Of a stretch of DNA of 64,000 nt, positions 4,312-45,456 are shown in pieces. The notes beneath the pieces are model-generated. The model had not been told where the DNA came from and made no database searches. It saw only the letters and a program-made list of their open reading frames with translations. The first letter of the stretch is position 1. Each line of letters opens with the position of its first letter. The position numbers and the translations under genes are program-made. This stretch comes from Glycomyces terrestris (GTDB taxonomy: Bacteria; Actinomycetota; Actinomycetes; Mycobacteriales; Micromonosporaceae), in NCBI RefSeq assembly GCF_003933745.1, contig NZ_RSEB01000004.1, forward strand, positions 682,001 through 746,000. The letters are read 5' to 3'.

Positions 4312-6372
4312 ATGAGCACTGTCGACACTGCCGAGCGCGCGGCCGCGGCGGAGCCCGCGCCGCCGGTCCTGGGCAAGTCCCGCCGGAACCTCGTGTTCGT
4401 CACGATCCTGCTGGGCATGCTCATGGCGGCGCTGGACCAGACGATCGTGTCGACGGCGCTGCCGACGATCGTCGCCGACCTCGGCGGCGCGGGCCACATG
4501 GCGTGGGTGGTGACGTCCTATCTGCTCGCCGAGGCGATCGCGTCGGCGATCGTGGGCAAGTTCGGCGACATGTTCGGGCGCAAGGCGATCTTCCAGATCA
4601 GCGCGGTCGTGTTCGTGGGCGGTTCGGCCCTGGCCGGGTTCAGCGACGACATGGTGTTCCTCATCGTGGCGCGCGCGGTCCAGGGGCTGGGCGCGGGCGG
4701 GCTCATGGTCACGGCGATGGCGCTCATCGCGGACGTGATCCCGCTGCGCGAGCGCGGCAAGTACCAGGGCGCGATGGGCGCGGTCTTCGGGGTGACGACG
4801 GTGCTCGGGCCGACGCTCGGGGGCCTGTTCACCGACCACCTGTCGTGGCGGTGGTGCTTCTACGTGAACGTGCCGATCGCGGTCGTGATGATCGCGATGG
4901 CGGCGGCGACGGTGCCGCGGGTGCGGGCGGCCGTGCGGCCGGTGATCGACTACTGGGGGCTGATCTTCGTCGCGGTCGGCACGTCGCTGCTGATCCTGGC
5001 GCTGGAGTGGGGCGGGGACGACTACGCGTGGGACTCGCCGACGATCCTGGGCATGTTCGCCGGGGCGGTGGCGGCGCTGGTGGTGTTCGTGCTGGTCGAG
5101 CGGCGGGCCGCGGAGCCGATCCTGCCGATGTGGCTGTTCCGGAACCCGGTGTTCGCGGTGTCGTCGGTGCTGAGCTTCATCGTGGGGTTCGCGATGCTCG
5201 GGGCGATGACGTTCCTGCCGACGTACCTCCAGTACGTGGACGGGGTGTCGGCGACGGTGTCGGGGTACCGGACGCTGCCGATGGTCGCGGGCATGCTGAC
5301 GACCTCGATCCTGTCGGGCTCGGTGGTGAGCCGCACCGGGCGGTACAAGGCGTTCCCGATCGCCGGGACCGGCGTCATGGCGGTCGGCCTCTACCTCATG
5401 TCCACGATGGACCGGGCGACGAGCGTGTGGCTGGAGTCGCTGTACATGCTGGTGTTCGGGCTCGGTCTGGGCCTGGCGATGCAGGTGCTCACGATCGCGG
5501 TCCAGAACACGGTCCCCTACGCGCAGATGGGCGCGGCGACGTCGGGGGTGACGTTCTTCCGGACGGTCGGCTCCACGTTCGGGACCGCGATCTTCGGGAC
5601 CCTGTTCACCAACCACTCGACGCCGCTGCTGGCGGCGGCGTACGCCGAGGCGGGCGTGGACCCGGCCGCGGTCGCGAGCCCCGCGGCGCTGCACGCGCTG
5701 CCCGAGGCCGTGATCGCCCCGATCGCGGACGCGTACGCGGACTCGATCGACTTCGTGTTCCTCTGGACGGTGCCGGTCGCCGTGGTCGGCTTCCTGGTGG
5801 CGTGGTTCCTCCAGGAGCGGCCGCTGCACGACGCGGCGCGCGGGCGCGCGAACGACATGGGCGAGGGCTTCGCGGCCCCGGACCCGTCACCGTCGGAGGA
5901 GCGGCTCGCGCGGATGGTCGCCGACCTCATGCGGCGCGAGCGGCGCACCGTCTACACCGAGGTGTACGAGGCGGCGGCGGGCGCGAGCGCGCTCGACCGG
6001 GCCGGGACGTGGGCGCTGCGCCAGGTGTACATGCGGCAGGTCGCGGGGGCCGACGCGACGCTCGCGGGGATCGCCGCGGCCCACCGGCTGCCGCCGCAGG
6101 TGCTGCAACCGGTGTTCGTGCAGGCGGTCCGGGAGGGGTACCTGACGGTGAACGCGGGGCGCCTGAGCCTGACGCCGCGGGGCCGCGCCGAGTTCGAGCT
6201 GTTCGTGTCGGCGTGGAAGCGCTGGCTCGACCGGCATCTGGACGACTGGAGCCTCGCCGACCCGCAGGACCGGGAGGTGTTCAACCGGTCGGTCGCCCAT
6301 CTGGCGCGCGACATCGCCGCGCAGGAGTCCTTTGAGTCCTCGGACCGGCGCGACGCGGCGGCCTCGGTGTGA
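4312..6372 (+). CDS. DHA2-type MFS drug exporter with C-terminal winged-helix domain
   Basis: 686 residues. About 14 membrane segments cover residues 25-505. LDQTIVSTALPTI is the DHA2 motif D1, KFGDMFGRK is the MFS motif A loop, and the motif C region GVTTVLGPTLGG is present. It should export toxic compounds using the proton gradient. After the last membrane span come about 150 soluble residues (530-686). Within them TLAGIAAAHRLPPQVLQ, then REGYLTV and LSLTPRGRAEFE, read like a MarR-type winged helix. The extension is in the same frame, with no stop or frameshift. It may sense substrate or bind DNA, which is inference. The gene ends at a 13-bp hairpin. Confidence 0.88.
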   Translation: MSTVDTAERAAAAEPAPPVLGKSRRNLVFVTILLGMLMAALDQTIVSTALPTIVADLGGAGHMAWVVTSYLLAEAIASAIVGKFGDMFGRKAIFQISAVVFVGGSALAGFSDDMVFLIVARAVQGLGAGGLMVTAMALIADVIPLRERGKYQGAMGAVFGVTTVLGPTLGGLFTDHLSWRWCFYVNVPIAVVMIAMAAATVPRVRAAVRPVIDYWGLIFVAVGTSLLILALEWGGDDYAWDSPTILGMFAGAVAALVVFVLVERRAAEPILPMWLFRNPVFAVSSVLSFIVGFAMLGAMTFLPTYLQYVDGVSATVSGYRTLPMVAGMLTTSILSGSVVSRTGRYKAFPIAGTGVMAVGLYLMSTMDRATSVWLESLYMLVFGLGLGLAMQVLTIAVQNTVPYAQMGAATSGVTFFRTVGSTFGTAIFGTLFTNHSTPLLAAAYAEAGVDPAAVASPAALHALPEAVIAPIADAYADSIDFVFLWTVPVAVVGFLVAWFLQERPLHDAARGRANDMGEGFAAPDPSPSEERLARMVADLMRRERRTVYTEVYEAAAGASALDRAGTWALRQVYMRQVAGADATLAGIAAAHRLPPQVLQPVFVQAVREGYLTVNAGRLSLTPRGRAEFELFVSAWKRWLDRHLDDWSLADPQDREVFNRSVAHLARDIAAQESFESSDRRDAAASV

Positions 6373-6383
6373 GCGTCGTCTTC

Positions 6384-6412
6384 GGGCGGGACCGGCCATG
6401 CCGGTCCCGCCC
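6384..6412 (+). terminator. Hairpin after MFS gene
   Basis: Perfect 13-bp stem (6384-6396 with 6400-6412) and a 3-nt loop, 12 bases after the stop; no T-run. Confidence 0.65.
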
Positions 6413-6663
6413 GCTGTCATATCGGGGCGCGGGCCGTGTCGGGGTCTGCGGCGGAGGGCTGTTCGCGTACCGCGCACCGCGTACTGCGCACCGCGTGCCC
6501 GCCGGCCGCGGCGACCATGGCACCGGCACCCGCGGTCACCACTCTCCCCCGAGTCCTCGCCTCCACGGCCGGCTCCACCTCACCGCCTTCCCCCTCGCCC
6601 TCCTCGCCGGACTCACCCCCACCGCCCCGCCGGCCGCACCACCGCCTTGAGGCGCTGAGGGCG
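6413..6663. other. Non-coding stretch between convergent genes
   Basis: No credible gene is seen. It holds a 14-bp tandem duplication (6465-6478 and 6479-6492, differing at one base) and C-rich, codon-free-looking sequence up to the esterase stop codon. Confidence 0.5.
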
Positions 6664-7731
6664 TCACTCCGGTTGCGGCCGTGCGGGGGTGAGGGTCGGT
6701 TCGCCGTCGCCGGCGCGCAGGATCGCGTCGGCGCCGCCGAAGTCGACGTTCGATCCGCCGCCCGCCACGCTGCGATCGTCGCGGGTGTCGGCGCGGGTGT
6801 CGTGGCGGTCTTCGGGGGCGGCGAGGGTGCCGGCGACGAAGACGTACTTGGGGCCGAGGAGGACCGCGACGATGGCGCCCGCGCCGGACCAGGCCAGGTT
6901 CATGCCCGCCATCTCCATGCGGCTCTCGGTGCGTTGCAGGTGAATGTTGTGCGCGAAGACCGCGGTCGGGCCGCGTTCGGCCTCGGTGGCGCGGATGTCG
7001 AGGAGGTTGCGGGCCATGAGGGCGTCGCGCACGCTGGCGAGGCGGCTCCACCGTTCGCTTTCTTCGAGGGGCTGCGCGGCTTGGCGGTGGTAGCGGAGCA
7101 GGCCGAGCGCGGTGGTCGCGTGGATGCGGGCCCGGTCCCAGTCGGTGCGGGAGGTCGCCGCGATCAGACGCGGCGCCTCGGCGTCGAGCGCGGCCAGGAG
7201 GTCGTCGGCGACGACGCGGAGCCGGTGGGCCGCCGGGGTGTCGCCGGGTGAGGCCGCCGGGTCGACGACCGCTTCAGTGCGGCTCCACCGCTCGTCGTCG
7301 CCGCACGGTTCGGTGAGATCGAGGTCGCGGCCGAGGTAGTCGCGGACGTGCTCGAGGTAGGCGCGCGGGCTGGCCGCGGTGAACTCGAGCGGGGCGTCCA
7401 TGCCGTGGAAGGCGACCCGGTCGCGTGGGGCGCGGCCCTCGTTGTGCTCGCGCAGCCATGCGAGGAGGCGCCGGTTGACGTCGAAGGCGCCGAAGCCGTG
7501 CGTGATCCCCTCGGCGGCGGCGGAGTCGAGGGTTCCGGCGCGGCCCTGCACGTAGTCGTCGGCGATGAGCGCGGCCACGCGGTCCGATTCGAACGCGATC
7601 GAGCGGACGCCGCCTTCGACCAGGCGGGTGAACAGTTCGAGGCGGGCGTCGGCGAGCGCGGAGTCGCCGTGGGCGTGCTCGCCGAGCCCGATGAGCTCGT
7701 GGGAGCCGGTGATGCAGTGTCGGTGTTCCAT
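6664..7731 (-). CDS. Erythromycin esterase homologue
   Basis: 355 residues. GLGEHAHGDS near residue 17 (the GE-x-x-HG motif), FESD and HNIHLQR near residue 275 match the EreA/EreB-type fold (PF05139), whose catalytic His and Glu open macrolide lactones by hydrolysis. Many family members act on unknown substrates, so macrolide resistance is only possible. The last 45 residues are low-complexity and family-atypical. It is divergent from a double MerR regulator with 80 bp between starts, filled with inverted repeats, so the pair probably forms an inducible unit. Confidence 0.8.
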   Translation of the reverse strand: MEHRHCITGSHELIGLGEHAHGDSALADARLELFTRLVEGGVRSIAFESDRVAALIADDYVQGRAGTLDSAAAEGITHGFGAFDVNRRLLAWLREHNEGRAPRDRVAFHGMDAPLEFTAASPRAYLEHVRDYLGRDLDLTEPCGDDERWSRTEAVVDPAASPGDTPAAHRLRVVADDLLAALDAEAPRLIAATSRTDWDRARIHATTALGLLRYHRQAAQPLEESERWSRLASVRDALMARNLLDIRATEAERGPTAVFAHNIHLQRTESRMEMAGMNLAWSGAGAIVAVLLGPKYVFVAGTLAAPEDRHDTRADTRDDRSVAGGGSNVDFGGADAILRAGDGEPTLTPARPQPE

Positions 7732-7743
7732 GGGCGCAAACGT

Positions 7744-7808
7744 ATCGTTGAAAGAACGATTGAGACTTCGATCGGGTGCTAGCTCGGGGCAGCACGGTAG
7801 AGTCTCAA
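7744..7808. promoter_or_regulatory. Operator region between esterase and MerR genes
   Basis: Two inverted repeats are seen: ATCGTT-N5-AACGAT (7744-7760), and TTGAGACT (7760-7767) pairing with AGTCTCAA (7801-7808). They occupy the whole divergent promoter and are likely sites for the double MerR protein. Confidence 0.55.
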
Positions 7809-7811
7809 ACG

Positions 7812-8525
7812 ATGGTGAACTTGCGGCCTTCTGATCTCGCGCGGGAGCACGGCCTGTCGGCGCAGGCGGTGCGCAATTACGAGCGCGACGGGTTCCTGCC
7901 GCCGGCCGAGCGCACCGCGAGCGGGTACCGGGTGTACACGGAGGTGCACGCGGCCGCGCTGCGGGCGTACCTCGCGCTGGTGCGCGCGTACGGGCACGCG
8001 ACGGCGGGCGAGGTCATGCACGCGGTCCGGGACGGGAGCGTGGACGACGTCCTGATGGTGATCGACCGCGGCCACGAGCAGCTGCTGCGGGACCGGGCCA
8101 CGCTCGACTCGGTGCGGGTCGCGGTGGGGCGGTTGACGGGCGGGGCGGTCCCGGAGCCGTCGCGGTCGACGGCGCCGTTCACCGTGGGCGAGCTCGCGCA
8201 CCGGCTGCGGGTCACCCCGGCGACGCTGCGGAACTGGGAGGAGGCGGGCGTCCTCGCGCCCGAGCGGGACCGCGCCACCGGGTACCGGCGGTACGGTCCG
8301 GCCGACGTGCGGGACGCGGAGCTCGCCCATCTGCTGCGGCGCGGCGGGTATCCGCTGGAGCATGTGGCAGCGGTGGTGCGGCAGGTCCGCACGGCGGGCG
8401 GCACCGAGGCGCTCGCGGCGTCGCTCGAGGACTGGGGGCGGCGACTGACACGCCGGGGCCTGGCGATGCTGGAGGCGGCCGCGCAGCTCAGCGGCTACTT
8501 GGCGCTCCTCGGTGAATCGGGGTAG
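7812..8525 (+). CDS. Double-domain MerR regulator (TioE-like)
   Basis: 237 residues from the ATG at 7812. Two MerR DNA-binding domains occur in one chain: residues about 4-70 (LAREHGLSAQAVRNYERDG, then SGYRVY) and 125-195 (ELAHRLRVTPATLRNWEEAG, then TGYRRY). Classical MerR proteins have one HTH and dimerise; here a monomer could cover both half-sites. The arrangement recalls the TioE group from antibiotic clusters. No conserved cysteines for metal sensing are visible, so a small organic ligand is more likely. Expected target: its own promoter and the divergent esterase gene. Confidence 0.8.
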   Translation: MVNLRPSDLAREHGLSAQAVRNYERDGFLPPAERTASGYRVYTEVHAAALRAYLALVRAYGHATAGEVMHAVRDGSVDDVLMVIDRGHEQLLRDRATLDSVRVAVGRLTGGAVPEPSRSTAPFTVGELAHRLRVTPATLRNWEEAGVLAPERDRATGYRRYGPADVRDAELAHLLRRGGYPLEHVAAVVRQVRTAGGTEALAASLEDWGRRLTRRGLAMLEAAAQLSGYLALLGESG

Positions 8526-8569
8526 GCGGACACGCGCGGTGCGGCGGCCCCGGTGTCGGGGCCGGGCCT

Positions 8570-34649: not shown

Positions 34650-36101
34650 CTACTCGAGGTGGTTGCCGTGGTCGCCGCCCACCGTGAACGGCGTCGAGAC
34701 GCCCTCGTACATCAGGTGGGCCGACAGTCCTTCGAGGACGTGCGACAGGTTGTGGCAGTGGTCCATCCAGATGCCGGGGTTGTCGGCGGTGAAGGCGATC
34801 TCGTACTCCTCGTCGTCGGCGACGTTCAGCGAGTCGATCCACCAGGGACTCCCGGTCGCGGCCACGCCGTCGCGCGAGAGGACGAGCGCGTGGTGGCCGT
34901 GCAGGTGCATCGGGTGGACCTCGCCGCTGCCGTTGGCGATGCGCATGACCACCAGGTCGCCCTCGGCGACCGTGTACATCGGCACGTCGGGGTACAGGCC
35001 GCCGTTCACGGTCCACCACAGGCCCGGCCGGCCGTCGAGGAACCCGGGGCGGCGGCCGATCGCGTACTCGAACACGCGGTCGGCGTCCTCGGCGCTGAGC
35101 GCGGGCGCGGGGGGCGCGGTCCCGTAGTGGAGCGGGTCGAGGATCGCCGCCGGGACGGGGCCCGGCTCGTCGGGGGCGTCGCCGAAGAGCAGGTCCGCGC
35201 CGCCGAGTCCGACGCGCGCGCCGCCCTCGGGCACGGTGAACTCCAGGTCGGCGCGCCCGCCCGCGGTCACGGTGACCGACACGTCCTCGACCTCCTCCGG
35301 GCCCGCGAGGTCGGTGCCGTCGACGGCGGCCAGCCGGAACGGCGCGCCCTCGACCCACGTCTGCATCGGGCCCGCGTCGGTGTTCACCACCCGCACGCGC
35401 ACCCGGTCGCCCGGGGCGGCCGCGACCGCCGTGTCCTCGTCGAGGCCGTTCACGGTGCGGCCGCCGGGGAAGAGGTGCACCACGGCGAGCGCGTCGACCT
35501 CGACCGGGCGCGCCTCGGCGGCCGGGGCGACGACGAGCGCGCCGAACAGGCCGCCGCGCACCTGCTCGTGCGCGACCTGGTGCGAGTGGTACCAGTACGT
35601 GCCCGCCCGGTCGGCGTAGAACCGGTACGTGAACTCCTCCCCCACCGCGACCGCGTTCTGGGTGACCCCGGCGACGCCGTCCATGCCGCCCGGCACGTCG
35701 ACGCCGTGCCAGTGCAGGGTCACGCCGTCGCCGACCGACTCGTTGACCAGGCGCACCTCGACCAGCTGGCCCTGCTCGGCCTCGATCACCGGGCCCGGCG
35801 ACGAGCCGTTGACGCTGTAGCCCTCGACGCGGCGGCCCGAGGGGAGCGTGAACGGGCCCTGCTCGGCGGTGAGGACGACCGACACGTCCGGTGCGGCGCC
35901 GGCGGGCGGGACCAGGGCGTCCACCGGCACGGACACGCCGGCGTGGTGGGCGGGCCCGCCGCCGTGGTCGGCGTAGCCCAGGTCGGTGACCGAGTAGGCG
36001 CCCGGGACCAGGCTCGAGGCCCAGAACCAGGCGAGCGGAGCGAGGACCGCCAGGGAGGCGGCCGCGGCGAAGGCGGTGCGGACGCCTCTACGCGTAGGCA
36101 T
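34650..36101 (-). CDS. Multicopper oxidase
   Basis: 483 residues. An N-terminal hydrophobic helix (about 10-30) anchors or exports it. All four copper-site motifs are visible: HWHGVD, YWYHSH, HPMHLHGHH and HCHNLSHVLEGL, so the type 1 and trinuclear sites look complete. The enzyme oxidises an organic or metal substrate with O2 outside the cell. It is a three-domain laccase/CueO-like length with no Met-rich copper-sensing loop. Its ATG overlaps the 3' end of the upstream small membrane protein gene by 14 bases and has no ribosome site, so translation is probably coupled. Confidence 0.9.
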   Translation of the reverse strand: MPTRRGVRTAFAAAASLAVLAPLAWFWASSLVPGAYSVTDLGYADHGGGPAHHAGVSVPVDALVPPAGAAPDVSVVLTAEQGPFTLPSGRRVEGYSVNGSSPGPVIEAEQGQLVEVRLVNESVGDGVTLHWHGVDVPGGMDGVAGVTQNAVAVGEEFTYRFYADRAGTYWYHSHQVAHEQVRGGLFGALVVAPAAEARPVEVDALAVVHLFPGGRTVNGLDEDTAVAAAPGDRVRVRVVNTDAGPMQTWVEGAPFRLAAVDGTDLAGPEEVEDVSVTVTAGGRADLEFTVPEGGARVGLGGADLLFGDAPDEPGPVPAAILDPLHYGTAPPAPALSAEDADRVFEYAIGRRPGFLDGRPGLWWTVNGGLYPDVPMYTVAEGDLVVMRIANGSGEVHPMHLHGHHALVLSRDGVAATGSPWWIDSLNVADDEEYEIAFTADNPGIWMDHCHNLSHVLEGLSAHLMYEGVSTPFTVGGDHGNHLE

Positions 36102-36676: not shown

Positions 36677-39163
36677 CTACTGGAGGGCCCAGATCTGGAC
36701 GGCGCCGAGCGCGGCGCCGGTGACGGCGACCTTGGTGCCGTCGACCTCGGCGAACACGGCCGACTGGATGAGGTCCTCGCCCTCGTGCGGGGCGAAGATC
36801 TCCCCGAACTGCCGCCCGGTGGACAGGTCGAACATGCTCAGGCCCCGGCTGCCGTGCATGACGGCCACGGGCACCCCGTCGACCTCGGTCACGCCGACCG
36901 CGGTGACCTCCTGGAGCAGCTCCTGGCCCGCGGTGCCGTACGGCTCCCCCGCGGCGAGGTCCCAGGCCTGGACCGAGCCCTCGGCGGTGACCGTGACGCC
37001 GAGGTCCTTCCCGGCCGCGGTGCCGGCCCCGAAGGCGACGACCTCGTAGCTCAACTGGTCGAAGGTGGCGCCGACCGGCTCGCCGGTGGCGAGGTCGGCC
37101 ACGAACACGCGGTTCTCGTAGGTGCCGACGTGGCGCAGGACGCCGCCGACCGCGGCCATGCCGGTGAGGTCGGCGTACGCGGTCGTGACCGAGCCGATGT
37201 CGGCGCCCGTGTAGAGCTGGCGCACCTCGTAGTCGGTGAGGTAGGCGGGCACGCCGTCCCACAGGCCGACCCAGTAGATCGTGTCGTAGCCCGACTCGCG
37301 CTCGTTCACGGGCGCGGCGGGGTCGGCGAGGGGCCAGACGGCCTCGGTCGTGCCGTCGCGGCTGAACGCGATCCACTCGCCGTCGTACTCGAACACCGAG
37401 AGGTGGTCGATCGGGTTCTGGTGGCCGCGGTACTCGTCGATCTTCTCGCCGGTGGTGAGGTCCCAGATGCGGATGATGGCGTCCTCGCCGGCGGAGACGG
37501 CGACCGGGACGGTGCCGATGAACCCCGTGCGGACGGCCGTGACCGCGCCGGTGTGCGCTCCGGCGACGTCGAAGACGAGGTCGCCCTGCTCGGCCTCGGC
37601 GAGGGGCACCGGGCCGCTGCCGCCGCCCGCGTCGGAGGCGGCGTCGCCGCCGCCGTCGTCGGAGGACGCGCCCTGGTCCTCCTCGCTGCTGTGCTCGCTC
37701 GACGGCTGCCCGTCCTCGGCGAGGTCGGCGGAGCCGTCCTCGCGCAGGTACTGGACGCCGATGAGGAGGGCCAGCGCGACGACCACGGCCGCGGCGCCCG
37801 CGCCGACGGTGGTCAGGCCCTGCTTCGTCCTGATCCACGGCGTCGGCGGCGGCGCGGGGTATCCGGGGGCCTGCGGCGGGTACGGGCCGGTCGGCGCGCC
37901 GGGCGGGACCATGGCGGGCTGGGTGACCGGGCCGGGCGCGCTCGGGACCGCCTGCGGCGTGCGGGGCGCGGACGGCGGCGGGAGCGGCATCGTCTGGTTC
38001 GTCGCGGGCACCGGCGAGGGCGCGGGGGCCGGCGGCGCGGTCTGCGGGGGCAGGGCCGGGCTGGGGACCGAGACGGGGGTGCTGACGGTGTGCTGGGCGA
38101 CCAGGCCGCCTTCGGAGACGGCGAGTTCGGGCTGCTCGATGGCGGCCGCGGCGATGCCGAGGTCGCGGTGCAGCTGGGTGGCGACCAGGGGCATGCGGCT
38201 GGCGGCGCCGACGAGGAAGAGGCCGGCGATCTGCTCGGGGCCGAGCCCGGACTCGCGGACGACGCCCTGGGTGACGCGGATGGTGCGGGCCACGAGCGGG
38301 GCGCAGACGCGCTCGACCTCGTCGCGGGTGAGGTGGGCGTCGACGTCGAGGAGGGGGATGGTCAGGTCGGTGGAGGCCGAGCGGGACAGGCGCTCCTTCG
38401 CTTGGCGCACCTCCTCCATGAAGGCGGTGCGGTGGCGCAGGTCGGCGGGCTCGGTGGGGGCGGTGAGGCGGGTCCAGCGCTCGTCGCCGGGCTGGACGCT
38501 GGCGGCGAGGTGCTCGGCGAGGGCCTGGTCGAAGTCGAGGCCGCCGAGGTCGTCGGCGCCGTCGACGGCGAGGACGTCGAAGCCGGTCGCGCTGCGGCGC
38601 AGGACGGTGGCGTCGACGGTGCCGCCGCCGAGGTCGTAGACGACGACGCCGGAGCCGGGCGGGACGTCGGCGCCGAGGGTCTCCACGAAGTAGGACGCGG
38701 CGGCGACCGGTTCGGCGACGAGGTCGACCTGGCCGAGGCCGGCGGCCGCGGCGGCGTCGGCGACGACGTGGCGGCGGGTCGGGCCCCAGGCGGCGGGCAC
38801 GGTGACGGTGACCGGGCCGAGGGCGCCGAGGGTGTGCTCGCACTCGCGGGCGACGCGGGCGAGGACGGCGGCGATCACGCTCGTCACGGGGATCTCGGTG
38901 TCGCCCAGGAGGATCGACTCGTCGTCGATGCGGCGCTTCGGGTTGGGCTCGAACCGCTCCGGGCGGCGGCGTCCGGAGTGGACGGCGTCGGCGCCGACGA
39001 CCGGGCCGCCCTCGTCGTCGATGAACACCGCGCTGGGCAGCTGCGGCGAGCCGTCGAACAGCTGCTGGTGGACCCGGCCGTCGGCGCGCCGGATGGTCGC
39101 GACCGTATGGGAGGTGCCGAAGTCGACGCTGATCGCGGCGGGTCGGGGGCTGGAGAAGGACAT
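36677..39163 (-). CDS. Hsp70-like ATPase fused through a membrane span to a WD40-like propeller
   Basis: 828 residues. Residues 1-360 form an actin/Hsp70 ATPase: VDFGTSHTVATI (phosphate 1), VVYDLGGGTVDATVL (phosphate 2) and GLFLVGAASRMPLV (adenosine). No Hsp70 substrate-binding domain follows. Residues 365-460 are Pro-rich; about 463-483 is a membrane helix (VGAGAAAVVVALALLIGVQ); a Ser/Asp/Glu-rich spacer follows. Residues 530-828 are beta-propeller-like, with repeats such as AVSAGEDAIIRIWDLTTGE and AWDLAAGEPYG. The ATPase should be cytoplasmic and the propeller outside. Function unknown; a transmembrane sensor or scaffold is inference. It is divergent from a two-component system 89 bp away. 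TAGAGT 6 nt upstream marks a leaderless start. Confidence 0.85.
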   Translation of the reverse strand: MSFSSPRPAAISVDFGTSHTVATIRRADGRVHQQLFDGSPQLPSAVFIDDEGGPVVGADAVHSGRRRPERFEPNPKRRIDDESILLGDTEIPVTSVIAAVLARVARECEHTLGALGPVTVTVPAAWGPTRRHVVADAAAAAGLGQVDLVAEPVAAASYFVETLGADVPPGSGVVVYDLGGGTVDATVLRRSATGFDVLAVDGADDLGGLDFDQALAEHLAASVQPGDERWTRLTAPTEPADLRHRTAFMEEVRQAKERLSRSASTDLTIPLLDVDAHLTRDEVERVCAPLVARTIRVTQGVVRESGLGPEQIAGLFLVGAASRMPLVATQLHRDLGIAAAAIEQPELAVSEGGLVAQHTVSTPVSVPSPALPPQTAPPAPAPSPVPATNQTMPLPPPSAPRTPQAVPSAPGPVTQPAMVPPGAPTGPYPPQAPGYPAPPPTPWIRTKQGLTTVGAGAAAVVVALALLIGVQYLREDGSADLAEDGQPSSEHSSEEDQGASSDDGGGDAASDAGGGSGPVPLAEAEQGDLVFDVAGAHTGAVTAVRTGFIGTVPVAVSAGEDAIIRIWDLTTGEKIDEYRGHQNPIDHLSVFEYDGEWIAFSRDGTTEAVWPLADPAAPVNERESGYDTIYWVGLWDGVPAYLTDYEVRQLYTGADIGSVTTAYADLTGMAAVGGVLRHVGTYENRVFVADLATGEPVGATFDQLSYEVVAFGAGTAAGKDLGVTVTAEGSVQAWDLAAGEPYGTAGQELLQEVTAVGVTEVDGVPVAVMHGSRGLSMFDLSTGRQFGEIFAPHEGEDLIQSAVFAEVDGTKVAVTGAALGAVQIWALQ

Positions 39164-39252: not shown

Positions 39253-40386
39253 GTGGGGATTCAGACGCAGCTGCGCCGCGCGAACACGGTGTTCCGGTTC
39301 GTCGCCCTGGGCTACCCGGTCCTGTTCGGGGCGCTCGCGTTCGACGCGCTCGCGCGCCCCCTGTGGGCGGCGCTGCTGGTGGCGGTGCTGCTCGGCTGGA
39401 CGTGGCTGGCGACCGAGTGGTACCGGCGGCGCGGGTACGAGGCGGCGGCGCTGTACGCCGACCTCGGGGTGACCGTGGCCGCGGTGGCGGCCTCGGCGTG
39501 GGCGCTGGACGCGGGCGGCGAGGTGCCGATCTCGGTGGGGCCGTGGATGGCCGGGGCGGTGCTCGCGTGGGCGGCGGCCTGGGGCCGGCGGTCGGGCGCG
39601 ATCGCGGGCGCGGTCGTGTCGGTCGCGGGGATGCTCTTCAGGGGCGGCGTGCACTCCAGCACCGTGAACGAGACGGTCCTCCTGGTGCTCACCGGGTTCG
39701 CGGCCGGGCACCTGGTGCGGCTGGGGGTCGCGGCGGAGCAGCGGATGCGGGAGGCCGCCGAGCGCAGTGCGGCGGCGCGCGAACGAGAGCGGCTGGCCCG
39801 CGACATCCACGACTCGGTGCTCCAGGTGCTGGCGCTGGTGCAGCGGCGCGGCAGCGAGATCGGCGGCGAGGCGGCCGAGCTGGGGCGGCTCGCCGGGCGC
39901 CAGGAGGAGGCGCTGCGGGCGCTCGTGCGCTCCGCGTCGTACCGGCGGCCGCTCGACGGGCAGCGGGACCTGCGCGAGCTGCTCGGGCGGCACGAGGGGC
40001 CGGAGGTGACCGTGGCGGCGCCGGCGACGCCGGTGCTGCTGCCGGCCGAGACCGCGCGGCAGTTCGCGGCCGCGGTGGCGAGCGCGGTCGACAATGTGCG
40101 GGAGCACTGCCCGGAGGCGACCCGGGTGTGGCTGCTGGTCGAGGACGAGGGGGACGCGGTCCAGGTGAGCGTGCGCGACGACGGTCCCGGGTTCGCGCCC
40201 GGGCGGCTGGAGGAGGCCGCGGCCGAGGGGCGCCTCGGTGTGGCGCAGTCGATCCGGGGCCGGATCAGGGAGCTGGGCGGCGCGGTCGGGATCGTCTCGG
40301 CGCCTGGAGCGGGCACGGAGGTGGAGATGCGGGTGCCGCGGACCGCGGGGGGAGGTGCCGGTGGCGACGCTCGTCGTGGTCGATGA
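39253..40386 (+). CDS. MacS-type sensor histidine kinase
   Basis: 377 residues from the GTG at 39253. Residues 15-160 hold about five membrane helices (DUF5931-like sensor with very short loops). The HisKA_3 segment RERERLARDIHDSVLQVLAL contains the phosphorylated His186. The HATPase domain (about 245-365) has DNVREHCPEATR (an N-box variant with Asn), RDDGPGF and GLG-like features reduced to RLGVAQSIRGR. It should autophosphorylate and pass phosphate to the response regulator, whose start lies inside this gene. The signal is unknown; membrane or cell-envelope state is likely, as no external domain exists. Confidence 0.88.
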   Translation: MGIQTQLRRANTVFRFVALGYPVLFGALAFDALARPLWAALLVAVLLGWTWLATEWYRRRGYEAAALYADLGVTVAAVAASAWALDAGGEVPISVGPWMAGAVLAWAAAWGRRSGAIAGAVVSVAGMLFRGGVHSSTVNETVLLVLTGFAAGHLVRLGVAAEQRMREAAERSAAARERERLARDIHDSVLQVLALVQRRGSEIGGEAAELGRLAGRQEEALRALVRSASYRRPLDGQRDLRELLGRHEGPEVTVAAPATPVLLPAETARQFAAAVASAVDNVREHCPEATRVWLLVEDEGDAVQVSVRDDGPGFAPGRLEEAAAEGRLGVAQSIRGRIRELGGAVGIVSAPGAGTEVEMRVPRTAGGGAGGDARRGR

Positions 40387-40999
40387 CCATCCTATTTGGA
40401 GAGAGGCGATCAGCCGGGACCTGACGGGGGCCGGGCACCGGGTGCTCGCCGTGTTCGGGGAGGGCCGGGCCGCGCTGGAGGGCATCCGCTCGCTGCGCCC
40501 CGACGTGGCGATCCTCGACCTCCAGCTGCCGGACCTGTCCGGGGTGGCGGTGCTCCAGGGCCTGGGCGAGGACTGCCCGACCGCGGTGCTGGTGCTGTCG
40601 GCCAGCGGCGAGTCCTCGGACGTGCTGGAGGCGATCAAGGCCGGGGCGCGCGGCTACCTCGTCAAGTCGGCCTCGCCCGCCGAGCTCGCCGAGGCGGTCG
40701 AGCGGGTGGCGGCCGGGGACGCGGTGTTCACGCCCGGCCTGGCCGGCCTCGTCCTCGGCGAGTACCGGCGGCTGGCGAACGCGCCCGAGCCCGAGGAGCG
40801 CCCGCGCCTGTCCGACCGCGAGACCGAGGTGCTGCGCCTGGTGGCGAAGGGCCTGGGGTACAAGGAGATCGCCGCCCGGCTGACGCTGTCGCCGCGGACC
40901 GTGCAGAACCACGTGCAGCACATCCTCTCCAAGCTCCAGCTGCACAACCGGGCCCAGCTGGTGCGGTACGCGATCGAGCAGGGCATCGACGGGGACTGA
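40361..40999 (+). CDS. NarL/LuxR-type response regulator
   Basis: 212 residues. The receiver domain has DD8-9 (VVVDDHPIWREA), phosphoacceptor Asp53 in AILDLQLPD, and Lys in GYLVKSASP. The LuxR HTH (about 140-205: LSDRETEVLRLVAKGLGYKEI and LSPRTVQNHVQHI) binds DNA. The GTG at 40361 has GGGAGG 5 nt upstream and lies 26 bases inside the kinase gene, giving tight co-translation. The ketosynthase-fusion gene begins 71 bp downstream on the same strand and may be its target or part of the same operon. Confidence 0.9.
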   Translation: MATLVVVDDHPIWREAISRDLTGAGHRVLAVFGEGRAALEGIRSLRPDVAILDLQLPDLSGVAVLQGLGEDCPTAVLVLSASGESSDVLEAIKAGARGYLVKSASPAELAEAVERVAAGDAVFTPGLAGLVLGEYRRLANAPEPEERPRLSDRETEVLRLVAKGLGYKEIAARLTLSPRTVQNHVQHILSKLQLHNRAQLVRYAIEQGIDGD

Positions 41000-41070
41000 G
41001 TACTTTCGCCCCCGCGAAATGAGCGATCCAGCCGATGCGCCGCGACGGCGGCATGGGGCTGAATGGAGGC

Positions 41071-42930
41071 ATGAACGCCTTCATCACCGCCGCCGGGGCG
41101 TACCTCCCCGGGGACCCGGTCGGCAACGACGAGATCGCCGCGCGCCTCGGCGGCGTGGACGCGCGCGGGGACCGGCTGCGCCGGCGCATCCTCGCCGCCA
41201 ACGGGATCGCCAAGCGCCACTACGCGCTCGACGAGCGCGGCCGCACCACCGAGCTGAACGAGGAGCTCGCCGCGGCCGCCCTGAAGTCCATGCTGGACGA
41301 CCGCGGGCTGGCCCCCGCCGACCTCGACATGCTCGCCACCGCGACCACCCAGGGCGACCTCCTCGTCCCCGGATTCGCGTCGATGGTCCACGGCCGCATC
41401 GGCGGCGGGCCGATGCAGCTGCTGTCCGCCGCGGGGGTGTGCGCCTCCAGCCTCGCGGCCCTCGACGCCGCCGTCGCGAAGGTCCGCCTCGGCGACCGGG
41501 AGCGCGCCGCCGTCGTCGGCAGCGAACTCGCGTCGCGGTGGCTGCGGGCCTCCCGGTTCAACGGCGCGCCCGCGAAGGGCGGCGGGGGCGGCGACACCGA
41601 CGCGCACTTCCTGCGGTGGATGCTCTCGGACGGGGCCGGGTCGGTCCTGGTCGAGTCCCGGCCGCGCGCCGACCGGCCCTCCCTGCGCGTGGACTGGGTC
41701 CGCACCGTCTCGCTCGCGCACGAGCACGAGGTGTGCATGCGCGCCGGCACCGCCGACGCCGGCACCCCCGCCGCCGGGCGCACCTGGCAGGACATGGGCA
41801 GCGCCGCCGCGGCCGAGCAGGCCGGGATGATGCTGCTGCGCCAGGACACCTCGGCGCTCGGCGCGCTCGCCGAAGCGGGCCTGAAGGAGTTCGCGTCCCT
41901 CGCGCGGCAGGGGCTCATCGATCTCAAGCGCCTCGACCACGTCCTGTGCCACTACTCGACGAACGCGTTCCGCGACATCGTCTTCGACCAGCTCGCCGCC
42001 ACCGGCGCGCAGATCGACACCGGCCGCTGGTTCTCGAACCTGGAGACGCGCGGGAACACCGGGGCCGCCTCGATCTTCATCGCCCTCGAGGAGTGCTGGC
42101 GGACCGGGCGGTTCGAGCCGGGCCAGACCGTGCTCCTCGCCGTCCCCGAGTCGGGCCGGTTCTCCTTCGGGTTCGCGCACCTGACGTGCGTGGCGCCCGA
42201 AGCGGCGCAACCGGTCCAGGTCCAGGTGCCGGAGCGGGCGGCCGCGCCCGTCCACGAGCCGGTCCCGACCTCGGACGGGAACGTGTTCGCGCGCCTCGAC
42301 GCGGTGTGGGAGGACTTCGAGCGGCGCCTCGACGCCGTCCCGGTCCTGCGCCGCCTCCACGCCGGGGAGTCCACACTGGAGGACTACCTGCGGCTGCTGT
42401 TCAACCTGCGCCAGCAGGTCGCCGACGGGGCCCGGTGGATCTCCCGCGCCGCCTCGAACTTCTCGGTCGACCTGTTCGACCTGCGCAGCGCCGCCATCGG
42501 GCACGCCGCCGAGGAGCACCGCGACTTCATGATGATCGAGCGCGACTACGCCGCCTGCGGCGGCTCGATCGAGGCGATCCGCGCGGGCCGCAAGAACATC
42601 GGGTCCGAGGCGCTCTCGGCGTACATGTTCCACGCCGCCTCGCAGCCCGACCCGATCGGGCTGCTCGGGGCCATGTTCGTCATCGAGGGCCTCGGCACCG
42701 GCAAGGCCGCCGCCTGGGCCGCGCAGTTCAAGGAGCAGCTCGGCCTGCGCGACGACCAGGTGAGCTTCCTGGCCTACCACGGGGAGGCCGACGACGACCA
42801 CTTCGCGAAGCTCCAGGCGATCCTCGCCTCCCCGCGCGTCGACGCCGCCGCGGCCGACGCGATCGTCTCCACCGCGAAGGTGGTGGCGCGCCTGTACGCG
42901 CTCCAGCTCGAAGAACTCGACAATGTCTGA
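41071..42930 (+). CDS. Ketosynthase III fused to a haem-oxygenase-like di-iron protein domain
   Basis: 619 residues from the ATG at 41071. Residues 1-375 are a beta-ketoacyl-ACP synthase III (FabH/OleA-like) with an apparently complete Cys-His-Asn triad: Cys124 (AAGVCASSL), His294 (VLCHYSTNAF), Asn329 (GNTGAAS). After a Pro-rich linker (380-402), residues 405-615 are all-helical and resemble TenA/haem-oxygenase-like iron-containing redox enzymes. Candidate iron ligands lie in GHAAEEHRDFMMIE (478-490), FVIEGLG (Glu539) and AYHGEADDDHF (569-578). Condensation of acyl thioesters followed by oxidative tailoring is plausible, but unproven. The overlapping downstream gene is its obvious partner. 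The start is uncertain: GGAGG is only 1 nt before this ATG, and ATGs at 41053 and 41035 are in frame. Confidence 0.8.
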   Translation: MNAFITAAGAYLPGDPVGNDEIAARLGGVDARGDRLRRRILAANGIAKRHYALDERGRTTELNEELAAAALKSMLDDRGLAPADLDMLATATTQGDLLVPGFASMVHGRIGGGPMQLLSAAGVCASSLAALDAAVAKVRLGDRERAAVVGSELASRWLRASRFNGAPAKGGGGGDTDAHFLRWMLSDGAGSVLVESRPRADRPSLRVDWVRTVSLAHEHEVCMRAGTADAGTPAAGRTWQDMGSAAAAEQAGMMLLRQDTSALGALAEAGLKEFASLARQGLIDLKRLDHVLCHYSTNAFRDIVFDQLAATGAQIDTGRWFSNLETRGNTGAASIFIALEECWRTGRFEPGQTVLLAVPESGRFSFGFAHLTCVAPEAAQPVQVQVPERAAAPVHEPVPTSDGNVFARLDAVWEDFERRLDAVPVLRRLHAGESTLEDYLRLLFNLRQQVADGARWISRAASNFSVDLFDLRSAAIGHAAEEHRDFMMIERDYAACGGSIEAIRAGRKNIGSEALSAYMFHAASQPDPIGLLGAMFVIEGLGTGKAAAWAAQFKEQLGLRDDQVSFLAYHGEADDDHFAKLQAILASPRVDAAAADAIVSTAKVVARLYALQLEELDNV

Positions 42931-43732
42931 CCTCGCCGGGCCGCCGCTGTGGGACGCGGTCACCGCCGACCCGTCCCTCGCGCTCGACCGCGAGACGGCC
43001 CTGAAGATCGCCGCCGACCAGCGCCGCTGGACCCGCACCTGGCTGTACCCGCTCGCGCGGCCGGTCTCGCGGGTCCTGGCGCTGGTCATCGTGGCGCTCA
43101 AGCGGATCACGCCGGTGCGCTGGACCGCGCACCGGCTCATGGACGCGCTCTGCATCTGGTTCCTGCGCCGCTTCGTGTCCCCGCTCGCGGTCGAACTCCT
43201 CATCCGCCACTTCGTGATCGAGACGAACCTGCTCAACTTCATCGTGCGCAACACCGACACCGCGATCGAACCGGTCGCGCTGCGGCCCACCGACCTCGCC
43301 GGGCTCGGCGACAACGCCGTCATCGAGCACGACGTCAACGTGTACGTGGTGCTCGCCGGGCTCGGACCCGTCTCGCGGCGCGAGCGCATCGACTACTCCG
43401 GGCTCGACATCCCCGAGCTCGACCCCGAGCCCGAGCGGTTCCGCCTGGCGCACTTGGACATCCAGACCGCGCTGTGCCTCATGAACCTGCCGTTCGCCGC
43501 GTGCCTGACACCCGAGGAGTACCGCCGTGCCGTCCACTCGATGCGATTCGACGACTCGATCCTGGCGATCCTCGCCGAGATCACCGGCGACCCGACGTTC
43601 CTGCGGTGGTGCAGCGGCGACCTGTCGGTGCGGGTCGACTCCAACACGGACGTGCCGCACGCGGTGTACCGCCATGCCGTGATCTGCGAGTACGCCCACG
43701 AGCACCTGCGCCGGGCGGCGGCGCGGGCCTGA
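42923..43732 (+). CDS. Uncharacterised partner of the ketosynthase fusion (possibly DUF6999)
   Basis: 269 residues. The ATG lies 8 bases inside the upstream gene, so translation is coupled. Residues 40-120 are hydrophobic amphipathic helices (ARPVSRVLALVIVALKRITP, ALCIWFLRRFVSPLAVELL), suggesting membrane association. After these comes FVIETNLLNFIVRNT, and the second half is charged with His-containing segments (IEHDVNVYVVLAG, YRHAVICEYAHEHL). I recall a DUF6999 family of this form, but cannot confirm it. It has no recognised catalytic motif. Position implies a role in handling or modifying the fatty-acyl product of the fusion enzyme. Confidence 0.65.
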   Translation: MSDLAGPPLWDAVTADPSLALDRETALKIAADQRRWTRTWLYPLARPVSRVLALVIVALKRITPVRWTAHRLMDALCIWFLRRFVSPLAVELLIRHFVIETNLLNFIVRNTDTAIEPVALRPTDLAGLGDNAVIEHDVNVYVVLAGLGPVSRRERIDYSGLDIPELDPEPERFRLAHLDIQTALCLMNLPFAACLTPEEYRRAVHSMRFDDSILAILAEITGDPTFLRWCSGDLSVRVDSNTDVPHAVYRHAVICEYAHEHLRRAAARA

Positions 43733-45425: not shown

Positions 45426-45456
45426 TTGACCTCGAGTGCACTCGAAGTTCTACGCT
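45426..45456 (+). promoter_or_regulatory. MerR-type promoter with 19-bp spacer
   Basis: TTGACC (45426-45431) and TACGCT (45451-45456) are separated by 19 bp, and the perfect palindrome TCGAGTGCACTCGA (45432-45445) fills the spacer. This over-long spacing with a central operator is the hallmark of promoters activated by MerR-family proteins. TACGCT is 6 nt before the ATG at 45463. Confidence 0.7.

Follow-up and report, generated by a model that had tools for sequence, protein, structure and literature searches.

What is made by a protein in which a ketosynthase III and a haem-oxygenase-like (HO-like) oxidase domain share one chain, and does the small protein encoded directly behind it belong to the same pathway? 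The question is raised by a 64,000-nucleotide stretch of the Glycomyces terrestris genome (5.24 Mb; contig NZ_RSEB01000004.1, positions 682,001 to 746,000), hereafter the window, whose plus strand carries a gene for a 619-residue fusion protein (41071..42930) followed by a gene for a 269-residue partner (42923..43732). We found that the ketosynthase is related to StlD and DarB, that the partner belongs to the family DUF6999, and that ketosynthase, HO domain, and DUF6999 (together, the set) co-occur beyond chance.

The fusion protein and its DUF6999 partner

An original prediction, made from the letters of the window alone, had described a ketosynthase III and an HO-type domain in one chain with a 269-residue partner encoded at an 8-base overlap, and this observation is confirmed. 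In a Pfam search, the single open reading frame matches both ACP_syn_III_C (6.3e-11) and Haem_oxygenas_2 (PF14518; 8.7e-11; 42.4 bits, above the gathering cut-off of 28.9). The gene starts at the ATG at 41071, with GGAGG ahead, and ends with the stop codon at 42928-42930; the program-listed reading frame begins at 41035, and we chose 41071 because its start context recurs in sister loci. The ketosynthase occupies residues 1-374 (41071..42192) and the HO domain residues 408-619 (42292..42927); between these two conserved parts, the alignment shows a variable stretch, a Pro/Ala-rich linker with approximate bounds at residues 375-407 (42193..42291). The partner gene does overlap the fusion gene by 8 bases, and its product is a DUF6999 protein (PF22523; 6.4e-80; 268.6 bits, above the gathering cut-off of 27) with an all-helical model (pLDDT 81.6). 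DUF6999 has hydrophobic stretches and nine invariant His/Asp/Glu residues.

The ketosynthase retains the predicted Cys124-His294-Asn329 triad, and these three residues and Glu152 are each invariant in all 53 aligned ketosynthases. Its closest relatives are not those first proposed. OleA had been named as the precedent for this half, but the nearest solved relative is StlD (5gk0; 217.6 bits, E 2.7e-63); 3fk5, which we take to be OleA, scores 25.7 bits, and OleA was rejected as the nearest relative. The top NCBIfam model is StlD/DarB, NF005293 (cyclohexanedione/resorcinol ketosynthases; 1.2e-98), which scores 330.7 and 332.3 bits in two runs, below its curated cut-off of 450. In a tree whose root is unsure, the ketosynthase groups with StlD, two Bacteroidota plasmid ketosynthases, and three carrier-adjacent actinobacterial ketosynthases; it is about 35% identical to StlD and 28% identical to the FabH-like protein of its own genome.

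The predicted model of the HO domain (pLDDT 93.8) is an HO-like seven-helix bundle with the fold of 3dde, CADD, and UndA, and in a structure search it matches UndA 6p5q with a TM score of 0.74. Ligand candidates are E482, D485, E539, H570, D574, and H577. Aligned to MboA, five of these (E482, E539, H570, D574, and H577) cover five of the six MboA ligands. The sixth, His89, corresponds to Asp485, and all 53 aligned sequences have Asp there: E-x2-D replaces E-x2-H, and the domain departs from the canonical set of three His and three carboxylates found in MboA. The other five positions are invariant (53/53), the E482-x2-D485 motif shows no variation in either of two phyla, and the place of MboA Tyr82 is taken by H478. 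A plausible metal site, as predicted, is supported, with one ligand altered; comparing ligands by sequence alignment to a solved oxidase, together with the whole-fold match, did not turn up the implausible metal site that would have spoken against the prediction.

Co-occurrence and regulation of the set

The association of ketosynthase, HO domain, and DUF6999 exceeds chance. Of 296 genomes surveyed in the phylum, three contain PF22523, and exactly these three contain the HO subfamily (E 1e-8), which is a more independent test than the contig scan described next. A scan of genome contigs with the DUF6999 alignment, using peptide patterns from five actinobacterial sequences, fetched 49 loci, and in every one the three lie in that order on one strand, fused or split. 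In a plasmid collection, DUF6999 matches one record, from Pseudoalteromonas, which is annotated as ketosynthase III, iron-containing redox enzyme, and hypothetical protein in the order of the set and so places the set in two phyla; the Pseudoalteromonas HO member has no Pfam match at E 0.01. Ketosynthase and HO domain are fused in 20 of 51 loci and separate in 31, a count that leaves out the window (fused) and the Pseudoalteromonas locus (split). The fused loci come from Glycomyces, Phytomonospora, Dactylosporangium, and Trebonia, plus a doubtful locus from Brachybacterium squillarum (6134-8552 of that locus), whose copy is shortened or misread: its ketosynthase match overlaps its HO match within a single frame, and DUF6999 is matched in two pieces. 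That the same functions are fused in some lineages and encoded by neighboring genes in others argues for one pathway. The partner therefore does accompany the fusion in other genomes, as the original prediction needed; the system, suggested there to be a compact one of two genes, comprises three functions and, in many genomes, three genes. Clustering the neighboring genes of the loci revealed no exporter or other neighbor conserved across genera beyond these three.

Directly upstream of the set in the window, where a two-component system had been noted, Pfam identifies a DUF5931 histidine kinase (39253..40386, plus strand; PF19354 7e-17, HATPase_c 1.6e-11) and a LuxR-type response regulator (40352..40999, plus strand, start inferred; Response_reg 8.7e-23, GerE 2.7e-20). 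Within the window's genus, this system and the set are linked. Orthologues of both genes stand upstream of the set in 15 of the 17 loci L019-L035, the exceptions being L026 and L031 (the kinase of L020 is cut by the contig end); in Trebonia, they stand downstream. A survey of 22 genomes from the genus detected the HO subfamily in 18. The kinase (E 1e-60) occurs in 16 of these 18 and in none of the four genomes that lack the set.

Behind the regulator stands a direct repeat, TGAGTA ... TGAGCG in the window (40997..41025, plus strand), which we propose as an operator from comparison of the repeat among sister loci. In the window and in each of the 15 loci, the first copy reads TGAGTA; in the window it overlaps the stop codon of the regulator, as it does in some loci and not in several sister loci. 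The second copy is TGAGTA in 10 loci, TGAGCG in four and the window, and a variant in L033. In L032, the repeat remains behind the regulator despite another gene before the ketosynthase; this extra gene (4932-6209) is carboxypeptidase-like by eye. Among 35 other loci (L036-L067, L017, L026, and L031), a TGAGTA site lies upstream of the ketosynthase only in Dactylosporangium and Trebonia, and there is none in L026 and L031, both of which lack the kinase. The window's genome contains a single match to the strict pair pattern. We infer from these sequences that the regulator binds the TGAGTA direct repeat, but because the pattern was fitted to the same sequences and related species share intergenic DNA, the repeat is a footprint rather than proof.

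On the other sides of the set, the predicted lack of an adjoining acyl carrier protein (ACP) or ketoreductase agrees with the Pfam naming of neighbors in the window: no Pfam family reaches its cut-off in the next gene (43848), the closest gene for an SDR-type reductase begins at 45436, 1.7 kb downstream, and no Pfam-named neighbor on either side is a carrier protein. A minus-strand gene at 36677-39163 encodes an Hsp70-type ATPase domain (5.1e-35) with WD40/beta-propeller-like repeats after it; several Glycomyces loci have related genes next to the set. The minus-strand multicopper oxidase at 34650-36101 is, as far as seen, unrelated.

A proposed pathway and its alternatives

By analogy with dialkylresorcinol synthesis, we postulate that the set is a compact regulated pathway for an oxidized acyl-derived metabolite in which the HO oxidase replaces the aromatase, a reading that we favor without going so far as to call it probable. 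The ketosynthase would load an acyl thioester on Cys124 and condense it with a beta-ketoacyl thioester, as its relatives DarB and StlD do, with a housekeeping ACP or CoA as the carrier. The product would be a 2,5-dialkylcyclohexane-1,3-dione or a close relative and is probably cyclic. The fused HO domain, whose fold and ligand pattern are described above, would presumably act next, using O2 at a putative two-metal site (E482, D485, E539, H570, D574, and H577) to dehydrogenate or hydroxylate the dione, and would fill the place of DarA, the aromatase that does the oxidation in darABC. The associated DUF6999 protein may, at a guess, be a second tailoring enzyme or a partner in substrate or electron delivery, perhaps at the membrane. 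In Glycomyces, the two-component system would control the set through the TGAGTA direct repeat. A bolder form of this proposal, possible but considerably more doubtful, is a previously undescribed class of lipid-signal synthases. In these, a StlD/DarB-related ketosynthase would form a cyclic product to be oxidized in cis at a rearranged, carboxylate-rich two-metal HO site. DUF6999 would complete it as another metalloenzyme, one of helical build, and the set's own two-component system would provide both sensing and control.

Several points weigh against the favored pathway. The ketosynthase falls below the curated StlD/DarB cut-off, and its product may differ; with E-x2-D for E-x2-H, it is uncertain that the HO domain binds metal; the alignment of the domain to MboA itself reaches only E 0.39; structure searches with the predicted model found no structural relative of DUF6999; and the 49-locus sample, fetched by actinobacterial DUF6999 patterns, leans to close relatives.

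The set might instead modify housekeeping or membrane lipids rather than make a secreted or signaling metabolite, with DUF6999 as a membrane-bound enzyme acting on the product. We consider this unlikely: the hydrophobic stretches of DUF6999, the lack of a conserved exporter or other neighbor, and the presence of the set in most of the genus (18/22 genomes) agree with it, but the set is rare and patchy in the phylum (3/296 genomes) and has a two-component system tied to it in the genus. Less plausible still is a linear beta-keto product of an OleA/FabH-like ketosynthase, from which an UndA-like HO domain would oxidatively remove carbon, the result being an alkene or a shortened ketone much as first suggested. 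Ketosynthase III chemistry permits linear products and the HO fold matches UndA, but 3fk5 scores far below StlD and MboA's E-x2-H is E-x2-D here; an alkene or ketone is less likely than a cyclohexanedione- or resorcinol-type product. We think it very unlikely that the HO domain is no oxidase at all, having lost the canonical di-metal site and now serving the ketosynthase structurally or by binding substrate. Such a loss would suit the Asp found for a ligand His in 53/53 sequences, and the HO fold includes metal-free enzymes such as TenA (among our fold matches, and metal-free as we take it); against it stand the other five invariant ligand positions, the E482-x2-D485 motif kept across two phyla, and the split form, which retains HO as its own gene in 31/51 loci.

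If the dialkylresorcinol-like pathway is true, DarB-like ketosynthases would gain an oxidative partner of a new kind, and DUF6999 a place in a pathway. The fusion links an HO-like oxidase in cis with an acyl-condensing enzyme, and the subfamily-wide ligand change of this oxidase is directly testable. The product can be sought by expressing two genes, and the kinase and operator-like repeat make regulation of the set testable.

Comparison with known pathways and sister oxidases

Three actinobacterial carrier-bearing clusters (L015, L016, and L112, the last on a Streptomyces plasmid) have a StlD-like ketosynthase about 40% identical to that of the fusion and apparently represent another resorcinol-type cluster. 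They carry their own carrier protein (by Pfam in L015, by annotation in L112, by eye in L016) and an FAD monooxygenase (annotated in L112, by eye in L015 and L016); the HO domain and DUF6999 have no match in L015 and L016, and neither is annotated in L112, where no search was made. On Prevotella and Bacteroides plasmids, a StlD/DarB-like ketosynthase gene directly follows the gene for a regulator of the TetR or helix-turn-helix type, and the annotation shows no further obvious pathway gene next to it.

The HO oxidase matched eight plasmid records: that of the set itself, one without annotation, and six annotated records counted here. In all six, the nearest other HO oxidases adjoin AMP-binding enzymes, one being fused to an AMP-binding chain, which points to acyl substrates. 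These gammaproteobacterial sisters, 25-28% identical to the HO domain and beside or fused to an acyl-activating-type enzyme, keep E-x2-H; neither ketosynthase III nor DUF6999 is annotated in the six stretches. Plasmids L099-L104 (Citrobacter, Vibrio, Pantoea, Alteromonas, and Pseudoalteromonas) share a conserved cluster of a thermostable-hemolysin-family protein, an AMP-binding enzyme, an HO-like oxidase, and an SDR. In two records, genes of the response regulator and kinase types come after it, and the AMP-binding chain of Pseudoalteromonas shioyasakiensis includes the oxidase. We know of no function for this cluster.

In the open-licence literature, we found no paper on the ketosynthase/HO/DUF6999 combination or on DUF6999 itself. 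HO-like oxidases are a growing enzyme class, mainly described on amino-acid substrates (PMC13185094). Among the dar reports, one on Azoarcus names darB the DAR-cyclase and darA the DAR-aromatase (PMC3949708); Pseudomonas chlororaphis makes no resorcinol when darA or darB is mutated, while darC mutants still make some (PMC6403133); and cyclohexanediones are intermediates of dialkylresorcinols, both of which can act as signals (PMC4414361). The darABC system (DarB/StlD ketosynthase, DarA aromatase, and DarC carrier) resembles the set in its related ketosynthase and its compact operon with an oxidative partner, but the set has an HO oxidase and DUF6999 instead and no adjacent carrier gene. The di-metal oxidases MboA, UndA, and CADD share the fold of the HO domain, whose linkage to a ketosynthase is its own feature. 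Each half of the fusion has known relatives.
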